Below are positions 54,304 to 63,448 of a stretch of 64,000 bases of DNA, piece by piece; position 1 is the first letter of the stretch; each line of letters starts with the position of its first letter. This DNA comes from Mycolicibacterium helvum (GTDB lineage Bacteria; Actinomycetota; Actinomycetes; Mycobacteriales; Mycobacteriaceae). The translations under genes and the position numbers were made by a program. The stretch is taken from contig NZ_AP022596.1 of NCBI RefSeq assembly GCF_010731895.1, positions 3,906,001 to 3,970,000 on the forward strand. Direction: 5' to 3'. Under the pieces are notes generated by a model. The model was not told the DNA's origin. It was given only the letters and a program-made list of their open reading frames with translations, and did no database searches.

Positions 54304-54380
54304 CGCGGGGTGGAGCAGCTCGGTAGCTCGCTGGGCTCATAACCCAGAGGTCGCAGGTTCGAATCCTGTCCCCGCTACCA
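54304..54380 (+). tRNA. Initiator tRNA-Met (CAT)
   Basis: A 77-nt cloverleaf with encoded CCA. The anticodon stem is CTGGG-CTCATAA-CCCAG, giving the three consecutive G-C pairs of initiator tRNAs. Position 1 is an unpaired C against T72, another initiator feature. The T arm contains GGTTCGAATCC. The sequence right after it looks accessory, so its 3' end is the probable attachment site of the adjacent element. Confidence 0.96.
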
Positions 54381-54722: not shown

Positions 54723-54843
54723 TGAACAACCTGGGTGCGAACGTTGCCATTCGCAGTGACACCTCGTACCGGCATGTTTGGCCGGTCCCAGGAGTTGCGC
54801 ACCCACAATGGCCCAGGGGCGCAACGAATGTCAAGATCAAGAG

Positions 54844-55653
54844 GTGACCTCAATTGTGGTTTGGTGCGGTGTGGACCAACGTAGTCCCGCTTCTTTATAC
54901 ATCGCAACCGATAGCCGAATTACTTGGCCGGGAAGCAGGAGGCGGTGGGATCGCGGTCGAAAGACTTTCGCTTGCAAGAATGCTCCCTACATCTTCGGAT
55001 ACTGGGGTGATGTACTTTTCCCAGCCCTGACCCTTCCCGCGGTTGGGGATCGTATAGATGGCGGAATGTATTCCGGACTACCGCAGTGTGAAACACACGA
55101 CGCGATCGGGGGATTTATTCGAAGGCAGTGGTTAATGTACCCGGAAGATCTGCGGGTTGACGTGGGTATCGTGATCGCAAGTCGATCTGGGGAAAGAACG
55201 AGTGATTTTGCATTATCTGTGCTGAGTTATTCTGCCATTAAGCGTGATTGGAAGATGAGACACGTCTCGATGCCGGAAAGGTCGAGCGCACTTGCTATCG
55301 CAGGGACTGGCGCCAACACGGTTCGGGCGTCTCTCGAGCTTTGGGACGCTAACGAGACCAGCGGGACGAGCCGGGCCGTTTTCAGCGCATTCTGTGAGGC
55401 GCTTGAAGGTGGAGAGGATCCGTCGTCGGGCGGTCCTCCTCAGCTGGTGGGTTTGCACCGCATCGGATCGGGTAAGACGTTCGGCGTCGTTTTTGGTGGC
55501 CAGCGGTTTCTTTCTGGCGCCGATGTTCACACCCAGGAGTCCAAGGAAGCTGGTGCGTTCGAGTGGTTTAACAACCTTTTCGAGCTAACAGACCCCCTTA
55601 ACAAGAAGCGCCGCGCCGGCGCGCAGGTTCATAAACCAAGACCAGGAGCTTAG
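54844..55653 (+). CDS. Putative proteasome/HslV-like Ntn-hydrolase
   Basis: A 269-residue protein. From GTG 54844 the sequence is Met-Thr-Ser-Ile-Val-Val, so removal of Met would expose Thr1. Asp in YIATDSRITW follows at position 22 and Lys in RGRKTF at position 39. This Thr-Asp-Lys spacing (about 17 residues between Asp and Lys) is like Thr1/Asp17/Lys33 of HslV and proteasome beta subunits. ATG at 54808 could start a 12-residue propeptide instead. No ATPase of the ClpX/HslU type is adjacent; the neighbour is an OLD-family gene, convergent and 35 bp away. Base composition is clearly lower in GC than the core. Fold and activity are inferred from motifs only. Confidence 0.6.
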   Translation: MTSIVVWCGVDQRSPASLYIATDSRITWPGSRRRWDRGRKTFACKNAPYIFGYWGDVLFPALTLPAVGDRIDGGMYSGLPQCETHDAIGGFIRRQWLMYPEDLRVDVGIVIASRSGERTSDFALSVLSYSAIKRDWKMRHVSMPERSSALAIAGTGANTVRASLELWDANETSGTSRAVFSAFCEALEGGEDPSSGGPPQLVGLHRIGSGKTFGVVFGGQRFLSGADVHTQESKEAGAFEWFNNLFELTDPLNKKRRAGAQVHKPRPGA

Positions 55654-55688
55654 GCTCTTCGCGCTCGGCGGCGTCGCGCTTTCTGTAG

Positions 55689-57101
55689 TCACGTTTCCTT
55701 TGTTGCCAATAGGTAGCTATTAATGTCGTCGTACATGGCCTCAACGTCGGAGCGTTTCGTTTCATCCAAACCTCCCGTTGTCGACCACAACCCTTTCTTG
55801 GCGACCGTAGCGCTTCGTGCTGGCTTGTTGCGGATGTCGTCTGCGGGCAAAAGTACGAAGTGGTACGAGGGAAACCGCTCCGCACTTTTTTCTTTCGCGG
55901 CACTCATATCGGCGTCGAATATTCCGACAACTCGGCTAAAATGTAGCCCTTCAAGCAAGGCGCATATGGTCCCGATGTTGGTGGCCCCTCCTGCGCCCCA
56001 ACCGTAGAATTCACCTTCTAGGATTTTGCCGATTTTCGCGGATATTTTATCGAAATAGACGACGTCCTCTTGACCCTCAGTGATGATGATATTGTCGTCA
56101 AGAAAGAAAACCTCACTAGCATCTAGGCCTAGAGTATGCGGGGTATTATCGCTTCCGAGCTTGAGCATTCCGTCAAGTGCGTCGCGCGGGACTTGTGCAA
56201 GCTGGACGCGGCCCTCTTTATCCTTATAAGCCCGCGCGACCTCTGCTCCTCTTTCTATGTCGCGCCAATTCAAGAAATAGGGGGAATGGGTTGCGTACAC
56301 AATCTGCCGATCTGCCGACAGCTCTGACAGAAGTGAGCGAAGTCGTCTCTGATAATGCGGGTGAAGCGACAATTCCGGTTCATCGATGACGACGACGCTT
56401 TGGGGCTCGGAATCGTAGGTTGCCGAGACTATGACGAATAAGCTTATTATGCCGTCGCCAACACCTTCACTGCTGTGATAAAACTGGGGGCCACCGACGT
56501 CGAATTTCAGAAAATATTGACCACTGTGCATCTGATCGATCGTCCACGCTGGAACGTCGCCCATCACGCGGCCTAGCATTTCGTTGAACTTACTTCGGCT
56601 ACCTTCAGAGTTGATCTTAAATAGTTGTCCTTCGAAAGATTCCAGTGCTTGTGGCCGCGAACGGGGCGTTCGGCGGTGGCTGTAGTACCAGTCTCGATCA
56701 GTCGGGGGTGACTGGCTGAAGTAGGCCTCAAAGCCACGTCGGGACGGGACGACGACGATGTCCGGGTTGACTACATCGCGCTTCGACCACGTTGTTTCCG
56801 ATCCGCCGTGGATAGCTTCTAGGCGGTTTTCCTTTTCTTCGTCACCCACAAATACACAGCGAATTACTAGGTGGTCTGGGTTACGGGCATTGCGCTTCCC
56901 TATGGAAAAGCTGGGCAAGTTATCTTGACTTTTACTCATCGCATCGAATGCTTCAACAATCGTTGACTTCCCGCTATTGTTAGACCCGACTAAAACTGTC
57001 AAGCCGCTACCATGGCGCCCATCGGGTACTGCGAGTCTAAGCGATAGGGGTTCTGAAACGCCACGGAGCCCGTCAATTGTTAACTCCTTTATGTGGGGCA
57101 A
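55689..57101 (-). CDS. OLD-family ATPase with TOPRIM nuclease domain
   Basis: A 470-residue SMC/ABC-type ATPase: Walker A GSNNSGKST near residue 40, signature-like YHSSEGVGDG, Walker B VVVIDEPELSLHP, and the switch His in YATHSPYF. The C-terminal TOPRIM part has IITEGQEDVVYF (Glu) and VGIFDADMSA (Asp-x-Asp). The plan is that of OLD nucleases such as GajA of the Gabija system, which act against phage DNA. The start is TTG at 57101. It is relatively AT-rich and convergent with the Ntn-like gene; no UvrD-like GajB gene is next to it. Confidence 0.88.
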   Translation of the reverse strand: MPHIKELTIDGLRGVSEPLSLRLAVPDGRHGSGLTVLVGSNNSGKSTIVEAFDAMSKSQDNLPSFSIGKRNARNPDHLVIRCVFVGDEEKENRLEAIHGGSETTWSKRDVVNPDIVVVPSRRGFEAYFSQSPPTDRDWYYSHRRTPRSRPQALESFEGQLFKINSEGSRSKFNEMLGRVMGDVPAWTIDQMHSGQYFLKFDVGGPQFYHSSEGVGDGIISLFVIVSATYDSEPQSVVVIDEPELSLHPHYQRRLRSLLSELSADRQIVYATHSPYFLNWRDIERGAEVARAYKDKEGRVQLAQVPRDALDGMLKLGSDNTPHTLGLDASEVFFLDDNIIITEGQEDVVYFDKISAKIGKILEGEFYGWGAGGATNIGTICALLEGLHFSRVVGIFDADMSAAKEKSAERFPSYHFVLLPADDIRNKPARSATVAKKGLWSTTGGLDETKRSDVEAMYDDINSYLLATKET

Positions 57102-57438: not shown

Positions 57439-57771
57439 TCAAGCAGTCAGTTCGACAGTGTCATCACCGAACTCGGCGACGACGCGCAACTGCCCGCCAA
57501 GCGCGGCGACATAAGCCTGAAGCGTGCCCAACTCGGTGTGCGACAAGTCCCCGCTCTCAAGCTTCGAAACGCGAGCCTGTGAGACACCCATCAAGGCCGC
57601 GACGTCGGCTTGGCGGGAGTGCCCCAGCGCCTTGCGGATCTCGGCCAGACGGTGCGCCTGGACGGCCTCACGCATCTCCTCGCGCGCCGCACTGGCCCGC
57701 TCGGCATCCAGTGCACCCTGCGCGATCGCATCCGCGCGAATGTCCCGCCAGTTGCGCGCCATGGTCATCAC
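57439..57771 (-). CDS. HigA-type antitoxin (XRE helix-turn-helix)
   Basis: A 110-residue antitoxin. The DNA-binding motif is RQADVAALMGVSQARVSKLE, followed by the C-terminal segment LGTLQAYVAALGGQLRVVAEF that is typical of this group. It closely resembles, from memory, M. tuberculosis Rv3183. The ATG overlaps the toxin stop by 4 bp (ATGA). Toxin first, antitoxin second is the HigBA order. It should repress its own promoter at the inverted repeat 58125-58142. Confidence 0.9.
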   Translation of the reverse strand: MMTMARNWRDIRADAIAQGALDAERASAAREEMREAVQAHRLAEIRKALGHSRQADVAALMGVSQARVSKLESGDLSHTELGTLQAYVAALGGQLRVVAEFGDDTVELTA

Positions 57772-58121
57772 CCTCCGTGCTCGGTCGCCAGCCAGCTCTC
57801 GAAGCGTGCGTCCGCGATCGGAATGTTCTTGTCGTACCAGTGCTTCCAGTCGTCTGCCTTATCGCCACCCAGCAGCAGGACCGCCTGCCGCGCCGGGTCG
57901 AAGATGAACAGGACGCGGATGCTGGTGCCAGCCGGGCGCAGCTCCTTCATGCTGTGAAACTTCGAGCCGTTCACCTTGTCGACGATCGGCCGGCCCAGTG
58001 TCGGCCCCTCCAGCTCCAACAGGTCGATGGCACCGGTGACCGCCGCCATCACGTCCCTTTCGAGCGTGAAGAACCACTCTTCGACTTCGTCGAGCAGGAT
58101 CACGTCCCAACGCTTCGACAT
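57768..58121 (-). CDS. HigB/RelE-type toxin
   Basis: A 117-residue protein of the RelE/HigB (Gp49-like) superfamily: N-terminal helix EVEEWFFTLERDVMAAV, then KFHSMKELRPAGTSIRVLFIFDP and the C-terminal KADDWKHWYDKNIPIA. Such toxins cut mRNA on the ribosome. Rv3182 is the matching relative. It starts 11 bp after the integrase stop on the same strand, so it can be read from the xis-int transcript as well as from its own promoter. Confidence 0.9.
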   Translation of the reverse strand: MSKRWDVILLDEVEEWFFTLERDVMAAVTGAIDLLELEGPTLGRPIVDKVNGSKFHSMKELRPAGTSIRVLFIFDPARQAVLLLGGDKADDWKHWYDKNIPIADARFESWLATEHGG

Positions 58122-58124
58122 CAG

Positions 58125-58142
58125 TATAACCTCTACGTTATA
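58125..58142. promoter_or_regulatory. Palindromic operator of the toxin-antitoxin genes
   Basis: TATAAC and GTTATA flank the 6-bp spacer CTCTAC, a perfect inverted repeat 3 bp before the toxin ATG and overlapping the integrase stop codon. Read on the minus strand TATACT also fits a -10. A HigA dimer is the likely ligand. Confidence 0.6.
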
Positions 58143-59494
58143 TTGTGCGGAGGTAGATTGGCCGGCGCCTCGTCGCCGTCGGTCCAGCTGTCACCGAGCA
58201 GGAACGCGGCTGCCTGCTCGGCCGCTTCGCTATCGTCGTTGTCGAGGACGTGGGCGTAGGTCTCCAGGAAGAAGCCGATGTTCGCGTGCCCGATGCGCTC
58301 GCTGACGATCTTCGGGCTCACCCCGGCCCGCAACGCGCCGGTGGCGTACGTGTGGCGAAGATCGTGAAACGTGATGCGGGACAACCCAGCCCTGGCCGTC
58401 AAGCGTTCGAAGCGCTGGCGGATCGAATCCGGGTGTGGAGGACGTCCGTCGGGGTAGGTGAACACGAAGTCACCCGGGTGGTAAGCGTCGCCGAAGAACT
58501 CCCGCTCAGTGTCCTGTTGGGCGCGCCAGCGCCGCAGGGCGCCCACCGTCGTCTTGTCGATGGAGATGGTCTGGTCGGCGTTGCGGGTCTTTCCGCCCGC
58601 CTTGTCCACGACTTGGCCGCCGACGACAACCCGGTTGTCGTGCACGGTCACCTTTCCCGCGTCTAGATCGACCGCCGACCATTTGAGCCCGCAGATCTGG
58701 CCACGTCGGATCCCGGTGGTCAACTCCAGGAGGAACAATGTGGCAAAGCGGTCCTCGCGCACCGAGGCCAGGAAGGTCCGGATCTCCTCGGGTTTCCACA
58801 CGTGCCGGCGGGTTCGCGGGTTGCGGGGCGGCTTGACGTTGCTCGCCGGGTTCTCGGGGATGTACTTCCAGGCGACGGCATCGGCGAGTGCCCGGTGCAG
58901 GAACGAATGAATGTTGCGGACGGTCTTGGGGGCCAGGCCTTGCGTGAGGGTCCGGGGAGTCAGGCCCGCCTTGTAGCGCCGGACGGCGTCACGCGCGGCG
59001 TGGATGGAGGTACCGCACGCCGTCGACAGCTCGCGAGGTGTCGGTGGCGGCTTGCCGCTGGCGGCCAGCTTCGCCCAATGGGTGTACATCACCGCGTCGT
59101 TGTTCGGTTTCACCCGGCCCTTGGCCAGCAGCATCGCGTAAAACCGCAGCAGCACCGGCCCATTGAGCGCCTGAAGCCGCTCGCCGCCGACGTGGGGGAT
59201 GACGTACCACCGGGCATAGTCGCTCCAGCTGCGCCACGTGGAGGCGTCAAGCGCCGGTTGCACCGCCGTCAGCCAGTCGGTGACGAACTCGCCGACTGTC
59301 TGTTGCGACGGCCGCACGATCCGATTGCGGTCGGCATCGCGCATCGCCTCGCGGCAGGCCTCCCACGCGTCGCGCTCGGTGTCGTGGCCACCCTTGGTCA
59401 CCCACGGGAACTGGCCGGTCGAGGGATCTCGCTGCGGCAGCCGAAACTTGTAGTACCACTTCGCGCCCCGCCGATACACCGAGCCCTTCATCAC
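58133..59494 (-). CDS. int: Tyrosine recombinase integrase
   Basis: A 453-residue phage-type integrase. An N-terminal arm-binding region (YRRGAKWYYKFRLPQ) and SAM-like core-binding region precede the catalytic domain. Catalytic residues are Arg in TTGIRRGQICGLKW, His-x-x-Arg in HDLRHTYATGAL, His in IGHANIG and the nucleophile Tyr in LETYAHV. GTG at 59494 overlaps the stop of the excisionase-like gene, so the two are coupled. It points toward the tRNA attachment site 3.8 kb away. Confidence 0.93.
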   Translation of the reverse strand: MMKGSVYRRGAKWYYKFRLPQRDPSTGQFPWVTKGGHDTERDAWEACREAMRDADRNRIVRPSQQTVGEFVTDWLTAVQPALDASTWRSWSDYARWYVIPHVGGERLQALNGPVLLRFYAMLLAKGRVKPNNDAVMYTHWAKLAASGKPPPTPRELSTACGTSIHAARDAVRRYKAGLTPRTLTQGLAPKTVRNIHSFLHRALADAVAWKYIPENPASNVKPPRNPRTRRHVWKPEEIRTFLASVREDRFATLFLLELTTGIRRGQICGLKWSAVDLDAGKVTVHDNRVVVGGQVVDKAGGKTRNADQTISIDKTTVGALRRWRAQQDTEREFFGDAYHPGDFVFTYPDGRPPHPDSIRQRFERLTARAGLSRITFHDLRHTYATGALRAGVSPKIVSERIGHANIGFFLETYAHVLDNDDSEAAEQAAAFLLGDSWTDGDEAPANLPPHNIT

Positions 59495-60607: not shown

Positions 60608-60658
60608 CGCCCGGCGGTATTGAGCCCTGGGCGATCTCGGGTTCGAGAGGTGATCGAC

Positions 60659-63448
60659 ATGCTGACGATTGCCAAGCTGTCGGCCTGGTCGATCAACTAC
60701 TACAACGAGACCGCCCGCGCGGCTATCGACGCGCAGAAGGCCGGCGGCGGGCTGGGGGAGTACTACTCCGAACACGACACCCGGACACCGGTTTGGTTAT
60801 GCGCAGGGGACGGCCGCCGCGCGGCCGAACTGGTCGGATTATCGGACCTCGACCGGGCGGGTGGAGAGGCCGAAACCGACACCGTGGAGCGGTGGTTAGT
60901 GGGCGGAGAATCACCCAACGGCACGACGGGTCGTGGCTTCCGAAACGGTAGTGTGCATGGCTTCGATCTGACGTTCTGCGCGCCGAAGTCGGTGTCGCTG
61001 ATCCGCGCAATCCGGGCCGACGACGTCACCGAGAAGGCGATCGCGGACGCCCACACGACCGCAATTTTCGAGGCGATGGAATACCTTGCGAGCCATGCCG
61101 GATACACCCGGGTCCACAATCCGACAACGGCGAAGAAGGACCTCGTTCGGCTGCCCGGTTTGGTGGGGATCGCATACCAACATGAGACCTCGCGGTCGGG
61201 TGATCCGCACCTGCACACCCACGTCATCGTGCCCAACCGCCAAGCCCGCGGCGACGGTCGATTGGTGTCGATCGATGGCACGTCGCTCTATCACGAAGCC
61301 AAGGCCGCCGGCATCATCTATCAGGCCACGCTGCGCCGCGAACTGCATCGATCGTTGGGTTACGAATGGCTGCCTGTCGACCCGTCAACGGGCATGGCGG
61401 AGGTCGCCGGCATCGACCCGAACAGCATCACGGCGTGGTCCCAGCGGTCTTCTCAACTGCGAGAGTGGGCCGCGGTAAATCTTGCGGTAAACGCGAGCGG
61501 CGGGCCGACGGCATCCCAGCTCGCAACGGCTCAAAAGGCCACCCGTCCAAGCAAGCCCGAAGAACTCGCGTGGACAGAGTTGCGGGCCGGATGGCGCACC
61601 GACGAGCGCGGCGTGCGCATCGATTCTGCGGCGCACCGCCGGGCCCGCCGCGACCGTCTAGCCACGAGCGGGCCGCGGTTCGACCGGCACCGGATCGTCG
61701 ATGCCGCCGCCATGATCGAGAAGGCCGCGTTCAGCCGCGCTGATCTCGTCGAGGTCGTCGGCGCTCAGTTGCCATTCGACACCGCACGCTCACCGCGCGA
61801 ACTGGTCGAGGAAGCGGTCGGCGAGATCGCGGTACGGCTGACCACCCCACGCGAGGCGCATCAGCGCGAAGGTCACGAGCGGTTCACGCTCGATCTGATC
61901 TTGGCCGAAGAAGCCGCAGTGCTCGATCTCGTCGATGCCCACGACCCGCGGTCAATCCTGTGGGGTCTGCCTGACGACATCGACGGGCTATCGCCGGATC
62001 AGCAACGCGCAGTTGTAAATATCGGCGTCTCACCGTGGTTGGTGCAGCCACTGAGCGCGCCTGCCGGGGCTGGCAAGACGACGTCAATGCGGGCTCTGGT
62101 AGCGATGGCTCGTCGCCGCCGAAGCGGGCGAGTGATCGTGTTGGCGCCGACAGGCAACGCCGTCGATGTCGCGGTCCGCGAAGGCGCCGGAGACGTGGGC
62201 TACACCATCGCCAAAGCGCTGCGCGACATCGACAATCACAGCCTGACCCTCAGACATACCGACCTCGTCATTGTCGACGAAGCAGGCATGGTCGGCACCG
62301 ACGATCTGCGACGCCTGCTCACTGCGACCACGGTCGCGGGGGCCAAGATAGTTTTAGTCGGCGATCAACACCAGCTCGCCCCGGTGAAGGCCCGCGGCGG
62401 CATGTTCGCGCAGCTCTGCTCCGACCTGCCGTGGACGCAGAAGCTGTCGGAAGTGTGGCGGATGCGCGACCGAGAAGAGCGCAGTGCATCCCTTGCGCTG
62501 CGCGATGGGGGACCGGCCCCGGTGCGCCGCGCGATTGAGTGGTATCGCAAGAAGGGCCGTCTGCATGCCGGAGACGAAATCGCCATGGCCAGCGCTGCTT
62601 TGGCAGCGTATCGACGGGACATCGCAGCGGGCAAAGATAGCCTGCTCGTGTGTGACACCAGGGAGATGGCCGACGCCCTGAACCAACGCATCCACAACGA
62701 CACCATCGGCCCGAACGCGCCAAAGGTGACCGCTGCACGTGGTCATCAGATTTCCGTTGGCGACCTGATCATTAGCCGCCGCAACGAAACCGCGATCAGC
62801 GTCTTGCATGCAACGGACAGCACCCAACATGCCGACCCGGTGCGCAATGGAAATCGGTGGCGCGTCTACGCCATCGACCCTGCCAAACAGCGCATCGCGG
62901 CGCGCCGCGTCAGTGACGGTGCCCGCACCGTCTTCACCGGCGACTACCTACGCGACCACATCGCCCCCGGCTACGCCGTCACTGTCCACTCCGCACAAGG
63001 TGCCACCGCCGAGACCACCCACGCCGTGGTGAACAAAAACACCACCCGTGCAGTGTTCTACGTTGCCATGAGTCGAGGACGCCAGGCCAACGCTGCATAT
63101 CTCACCGAGCAGCTCGGCGGCGACCAGAAGGCAGGTCACTACTCGCAACCCGAGCCCAACAATGCGTCTCGTGACTCGAGTCGACATGCGGCCCAACTCG
63201 TTCGCGGAGTCGTTTCCAACGACAGAGATCAAGCCCGCACTGCCCATGACATCGCAGCGCAGGCGCTTGGCAACTCGGCGGGTTGCGGCCGCGTTTCTGC
63301 ACTACAGTCTCGCCGACTTCGGCAGATCACTGACCGCAGGATCGCGCTACAGGACTGGCGGCGCGGGCATTCGGGAGTCGCAGACAAGCTAAATCGCGGG
63401 AAGTGCCAGAGCCGGCAAGCGGGACTCGACGACGTAGTCGAACTCTAG
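60659..63448 (+). CDS. MobF-family relaxase-helicase (TrwC/TraA-like)
   Basis: A 929-residue conjugative relaxase. The N-terminal TrwC domain has candidate nicking tyrosines Y14/Y15 and Y35/Y36 and the metal triad in DPHLHTHV (H184, H186, H188). The RecD-like helicase follows: [12 protein letters not shown] near residue 467, [20 protein letters not shown], then [12 protein letters not shown] and YVAMSRGR. The start ATG 60659 is preferred because GAGAGG lies 8 bp upstream; GTG 60650 is in frame. No coupling protein or type IV secretion genes are visible, so the element may be mobilisable only, or these genes lie beyond the window. Confidence 0.92.

Follow-up and report, generated by a model that had tools for sequence, protein, structure and literature searches.

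What does a proteasome-like gene do beside an OLD-type nuclease gene on a bacterial mobile element? The question is raised by a 64,000-nt stretch of the Mycolicibacterium helvum genome (assembly GCF_010731895.1, contig NZ_AP022596.1, positions 3,906,001-3,970,000, forward strand; "the window," in whose numbering coordinates are given unless stated otherwise), where a candidate N-terminal nucleophile (Ntn) hydrolase gene faces a gene for an OLD-type ATPase-TOPRIM protein. A first-pass annotation had suggested that the two form one defence unit, in which a peptidase-like partner may sense, activate or act as an effector alongside the nuclease. We find instead that relatives of the Ntn-hydrolase candidate often lie beside anti-virus genes in the company of varying neighbours, and that the protein is probably an unnoticed defence enzyme. 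This association of a proteasome-like family with defence genes is new and testable. The two genes are:

54844-55653, forward strand: Ntn-hydrolase candidate, proteasome-like, 269 residues, GTG start followed by Thr2
55689-57101, reverse strand: OLD-type ATPase-TOPRIM nuclease candidate, 470 residues; a neighbour and no conserved partner

The first frame comprises 269 codons up to its stop and opens, as annotated, with GTG followed at once by a threonine codon. The start is placed at 54844 because homologs align there, not from a clear ribosome-binding site, and an alternative longer open frame begins with TTG at 54778. Conservation was read from two alignments that both include the window protein, one of 80 rows (A2) and a cross-phylum one of 73 rows (A3), and in the latter Thr adjoins the start residue in 70 of the 73 rows. 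The Asp and Lys that had been noticed at the spacing of HslV/proteasome catalytic residues (Asp23 and Lys40) are without variation in either alignment (80/80 and 73/73). Position 2 is Thr in 79/80 rows of A2 (the remaining row has a gap) and in 70/73 of A3, with two Ser and one Leu, and Gly55, the predicted oxyanion residue, is kept in 71/73 rows of A3. GSG and D-x-x-S-G-G motifs have a role in 20S beta subunits, and both have counterparts in A3: a G-S/T-G loop at 154-156, with Gly154 and Gly156 invariant and the middle residue always Ser or Thr, and an Asp192-x-x-S/T-G-G motif (195-197), with Asp192 in 65/73 rows (otherwise Asn in four, Glu in three and Ser in one), Gly196 in 71/73 and Gly197 in 72/73. 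In the proteasome, the catalytic triad is Thr1, Asp17 and Lys33, with Gly47 in the oxyanion hole (Fuchs, Alva and Lupas, 2021; PMC8665760). In the register of an hhalign alignment of weak score, the Thr/Ser nucleophile and the equivalents of Asp17, Lys33 and Gly47 are present in 72/73, 73/73, 73/73 and 71/73 rows, respectively. Thr2, Asp23, Lys40 and the oxyanion Gly55 thus form the predicted catalytic set, from which we infer catalysis itself. That the protein is instead an inactive proteasome-fold binding protein, as the single A3 row with neither Thr nor Ser at position 2 might hint, is very improbable against a nucleophile retained in all other rows and an invariant Asp/Lys pair.

The model predicts a 20S-beta-like sandwich of alpha-beta-beta-alpha layers, and the first-pass annotation thus survives the first outcome it had named as refuting, a predicted fold lacking the Ntn four-layer sandwich. 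The structural matches listed for the model are 20S beta and Anbu subunits, and for a Bacillota member of the family Anbu likewise ranks among the best structural matches. Likeness to PrcB (20S beta; MEROPS T1) extends across ~205 residues of predicted fold and takes in the place of the Thr nucleophile, the Asp/Lys pair, the GSG loop and the D-x-x-S/T-G-G motif. However, identity is 9-15% in the listed structural alignments, the family has no propeptide, and the model carries a ~45-residue tail past the last core strands; also unlike the 20S, no alpha-subunit or unfoldase partner was seen for the family, and no unfoldase-type family recurs among the clustered neighbours of its loci. HslV and Anbu are likewise bacterial, single-gene and equipped with an N-terminal Thr or Ser, but the family profile matches HslV less well than PrcB, and the family is sporadic in distribution. 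The window protein has no Pfam match (E ≤ 5) and no PADLOC match (E ≤ 1), and PF00227 (Proteasome) is not among the 10 Pfam families matched by 80 members at E ≤ 1. The M. helvum genome has a separate pair of PF00227 genes elsewhere and, since 34 of the 44 host genomes searched also encode a PF00227 protein, the family does not stand in for HslV or the 20S.

Such a fold need not mean degradation. A connectase-like or other non-degradative Ntn enzyme, one that cleaves or joins a particular peptide or small amide (e.g., modifying a host or phage factor, or controlling a neighbouring defence gene), is a possible though rather unlikely explanation. Ligases and amidases are found in the Ntn clan at large (PMC8665760), and the conservation of Asp11, Arg114, Pro199 and Gln200 (invariant in the 73 rows of A3) and of Thr175-Ser176-Arg177 (nearly invariant) suggests a specific ligand; yet the model is without the long connectase-type S3/S4 insertion (loop 44-48), and the 20S beta and Anbu matches point the other way.

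Bacterial proteasome-like families have been catalogued so far without a functional clue. The 2021 survey describes 22 new ones (e.g., AAH, DAH and PMI-4), and it reports neither a function-suggesting genomic context nor an AAA+ partner for them (PMC8665760). The present family resembles these 22 in being a distant, propeptide-free prokaryotic proteasome homolog, many of them sporadic, and differs in its defence-island context. PMI-4, defined by a long insertion after H1/H2 and an insertion between H3 and H4 (PMC8665760), was considered and rejected as an identity, the H3-H4 loop of the model being 169-175 and its H2-to-next-strand segment 98-106, so that the defining insertions are absent. 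AAH is a compact group I homolog that is commonest in Actinobacteria and also occurs in many phage genomes, and DAH is an actinobacterial homolog with an additional C-terminal domain (PMC8665760); in the model of the window protein, the core is followed only by the ~45-residue tail. The family is possibly undescribed.

The functional clue comes from the neighbours. In each of 78 loci where a family gene had been called, either side was represented by the closest gene that encodes 100 residues or more, up to a distance of 3 kb. Of the resulting 146 genes, the 136 of up to 1,000 residues (77 loci, 41,815 residues) were scanned. They match 176 PADLOC families at 1e-10, as opposed to five for 116 control genes (40,988 residues) chosen by nearly the same rule around random positions in 20 stretches, each of 20 kb, that were drawn from 19 of the host genomes, a control that leans to core DNA. 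The model mad2 is matched by three control genes and also by two case genes. Among the Pfam matches of the case genes, RloB is seen twice. When 20 long, close neighbours (not a random sample) were taken singly, nine had a PADLOC match at 1e-10. Specifically, five match nearly the whole model (AbiO/Nhi at L034, HamA at L031, LmuB at L032, LmuA at L048 and PDC-S06 at L035), PifA (L065) is matched over about half of the model, and matches to DrmA (L046), a SIR2-type Argonaute-system model (L004) and an HNH model (L074) are partial. Transfer RNA genes show no excess near the family (10/42 case vs. 4/18 control stretches).

The family itself is large and scattered. A search of ~5.8 billion proteins returned 310 relatives by sequence and 1,303 by profile, and its size is accordingly at least 1,303 protein clusters. 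Among the 240 relatives listed (120 per search), none has a precomputed Pfam domain, and source names, where given, read "hypothetical" or "uncharacterized protein." With a loose first step that may miss some matches, genome scans found M. helvum alone in its genus (1/396 genomes) and as the sole full-length match in order-wide (397) and phylum-wide (396) samples, each with one short doubtful match besides; a named-genome scan gave 95 relatives, of which 80 were kept. On the tree, 69 labelled rows spread across 13 phyla require 17 phylum changes by a quick method, where 12 is the minimum possible, a pattern that is mostly phylum-clustered with some jumps and that, as far as sequences go, suggests cross-phylum transfer. 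Matches occur on five plasmid records (one covering only 62% of the query) and, by profile search, on four IMG/VR contigs. With a single sequence as query, none was found in IMG/VR or, by tblastn, in 50,697 phage records, and E. coli genomes gave no match to one distant gene used as DNA query. The plasmid and IMG/VR matches, together with Phage_integrase as the commonest Pfam neighbour (6/136; absent from the 25 families displayed for the controls), would also suit a protease that mobile elements carry as a passenger or accessory, serving protein quality control or element maintenance and merely riding along with defence genes. We consider this unlikely, as the neighbours are rich in defence models and not in mobility genes alone (a distinction that the control cannot draw cleanly) and the Ntn enzyme has no fixed backbone partner.

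Individual members offer further observations. On Agrobacterium fabrum plasmid pAt1, a multiubiquitin-domain/ThiF/DUF6527 set (L144:14326-16789) lies ~5.5 kb from the family member, placing a ubiquitin-like system near a proteasome-like gene. On an Arcobacter plasmid, a gene annotated as HEPN/Toprim-associated (L146:6677-7969) ends ~30 bp upstream of the member, and in a Burkholderia sp. contig (L072:10001-10801) the family copy has an internal stop codon and is probably decaying.

Taken together, we consider it somewhat more probable than the converse that the family is a stand-alone, propeptide-free, proteasome-like defence enzyme carried as cargo by integrative elements, a protease switched on by infection. 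Methionine aminopeptidase processes Met-Thr starts. To judge from the Met-Thr start here, this enzyme would remove the formyl-methionine and expose Thr2 without autocatalysis. Thr2 would then act as the nucleophile with Asp23, Lys40 and the Gly55 oxyanion hole in a 20S-beta-like fold. The gene would be defence cargo on integrative elements, some plasmids and viral contigs, residing in defence islands without a fixed partner, and its product most likely a solo protease (or other amide hydrolase) that infection turns on, either by way of assembly or because the enzyme binds a phage or damaged-host product, and that then would cut a specific protein. What the analysis shows directly is the gene with its conserved residues, a predicted fold, the mobile element and the surrounding defence genes; catalysis, the trigger, the substrate and any antiphage role are inferences. 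Single proteasome subunits are active only in the assembled complex (PMC8665760), and a solo enzyme could thus plausibly be switched on by assembling around a trigger that the phage makes. The broader proposal, an undescribed and widespread single-gene class of anti-phage systems built on an infection-triggered, proteasome-type N-terminal-threonine protease without propeptide, unfoldase or partner, we advance tentatively and at less than even chances.

Several points weigh against this interpretation. The control stretches were located at 25-45 kb from proteasome or HslV genes and so lean to core DNA and not to accessory islands; family counts exceed gene counts, as a single ATPase may hit a whole series of models; gene calling relied on a simple script, so wrong frames are possible in case and control sets alike; and 11 of the 20 neighbours taken singly had no PADLOC match. 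Residence in defence islands is no proof of a defence role, and amidases, acylases and ligases (connectase) also count among the Ntn hydrolases, which leaves proteolysis a guess. Proof of homology by sequence was sought and set aside, leaving the fold comparison alone as clear: neither phmmer nor a profile search found a significant match for the Ntn protein in the PDB, and hhalign reached a statistically weak 4.9% probability (E 0.008) against nine PrcB-type sequences (seven taken from actinobacterial host genomes and one from a Verrucomicrobiales genome, plus that of the window's genome), 3.8% against the single PrcB of the window's genome, 1.9% against PrcB plus HslV and 0.3% against HslV alone. 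In the alignment with the nine PrcB, the active-site residues and the GSG and S/T-GG motifs nonetheless fall in one register.

If the broader proposal is true, bacterial immunity would have its first proteasome-like effector as far as the literature searched shows. An anti-phage role for the family would, if true, add the proteasome fold to the proteases of bacterial immunity, a proposition that could be tested with proteasome inhibitors and active-site probes already in use. No paper linking a proteasome-like protein with phage defence was found among the titles and abstract beginnings covered, a search with bioRxiv and most subscription papers outside it; the one defence paper naming both anti-phage systems and HslV (PMC12345140) has HslUV, in the passages covered, only as heat-shock genes. 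For a family of this size, anti-phage genes as neighbours in many phyla offer a clue to function.

Is the OLD-type gene part of the system? Its identity and setting agree with the first-pass annotation: it lies 35 bp from the Ntn-candidate gene in convergent orientation, the protein matches AAA_21/AAA_15 (Pfam), the PADLOC models AriA (1.4e-28), Old (8.1e-25) and AriAB (5.7e-12), and PDB 6p74, an OLD-family endonuclease (2.6e-9), and both genes are lower in GC content (55.8% for Ntn and 52.2% for OLD) than window positions 1-54300 (67.3%). The Pfam OLD-like TOPRIM match is under its cut-off (E 0.012; 16.6 bits vs. 23.2), and GajA models (2e-12) come behind AriA and Old. By its likeness to OLD-family nucleases, GajA and the AriA of PARIS, the gene belongs to the same ATPase-TOPRIM class. 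PARIS comprises an AriA ATPase and an AriB TOPRIM nuclease, and here the AriA and AriAB models fall on one protein with ATPase and TOPRIM-like parts. Gabija pairs GajA with a GajB helicase, and the interval from the tRNA to the HTH gene holds only Ntn, OLD and short frames in the list of open reading frames (ORFs), which agrees with the absence of a helicase partner noted at first. A further difference from Gabija and PARIS is that the OLD-type gene is not conserved alongside the Ntn gene, and here the first-pass annotation parts from the data: its proteasome-type candidate, mobile element and defence context stand, whereas its two-gene system is not supported, a close homologue of OLD being found beside the family gene in 0/78 other loci. 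For the pair, this is the second outcome that the annotation itself had named as refuting.

Looser criteria do little to restore the pair. A phmmer search with OLD near other members recovered its own locus plus one weak match (L041, E 2e-4), and looser clustering adds L011 and L078, ATPases at 0.8 and 2.2 kb, so that an ATPase within 4 kb is linked to OLD in 3/78 other loci, at differing positions. Such links, the short convergent gap and a GC content below that of the element backbone genes (52-56% vs. 63-67%), by which the two may have arrived together, speak for a two-gene defence unit, but convergent genes share no operon, and in the other loci the downstream neighbour is convergent in 36 cases and tandem in 38. 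Apart from a cluster spanning seven loci, which we read as integrases, and a loosely joined set of ATPases (three loci besides OLD's own), clustering of neighbours within 4-5 kb gave no recurrent family. We regard the two-gene unit as improbable; most likely OLD is one more piece of cargo, and the members of the Ntn family look like solo genes within defence islands.

Both genes lie on an integrative element, the other features of which are:

54335-54368, forward strand: attL core, the 3' half of tRNA-Met(CAT); the tRNA itself is 54304-54380
57439-57771, reverse strand: HTH_3 protein, antitoxin-like, element backbone
57768-58121, reverse strand: Gp49-like protein, element backbone, by family presumably HigB/RelE-type toxin-like
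58133-59494, reverse strand: tyrosine integrase (Phage_integrase)
60656-63448, forward strand: TrwC-type relaxase with helicase domain
G000:C1:3982311-3982344 (window-equivalent 76311-76344): attR copy, 30/34 bases identical to the attL core

The 3' half of the tRNA is repeated 22 kb downstream, and in two genomes with empty sites (G004 and G009) the tRNA joins DNA beyond the far repeat (80% and 79% identity, 291 columns), so the element is ~22 kb long. The tRNA attachment site proposed at first is thereby upheld, and the element does not stop at the integrase but continues to the far repeat, beyond the end of the window. Searches with the window's own tRNA end (two mismatches allowed) matched only itself, and a devised tRNA-end pattern used as an att search found no match. 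The presence of a TrwC relaxase suggests a mobilisable element, which also encodes a transposase-like protein carrying an rve domain. A related element occupies the same tRNA in G002, with the HTH/Gp49/integrase genes 75% identical and relaxase parts 69-72%; where the window has Ntn and OLD, it has one 816-residue ORF (L151:714-3164), by its P-loop perhaps an SMC-like ATPase (no family search was made). Because of this other ORF and the lower GC, Ntn and OLD are taken to occupy a swappable cargo slot.

Further along the same element (L098:10096-13554; window-equivalent ~64395-67853) is a NACHT-like ATPase of 1,152 residues with HEAT repeats, which may be an NLR-like defence protein; its NACHT match is under the cut-off (22.6 vs. 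26.7 bits), and it has no PADLOC match at 1e-5. At the far end, a T5orf172/DUF4041 protein (L099:94-2129) matches PD-Lambda-1 at 1.2e-108, next to a protein partly matching a type IV restriction model (8.6e-32). The tRNA at 54304-54380 may be a common integration hotspot, and further downstream copies of its 3' half occur in G002, G006, G009 and G011.
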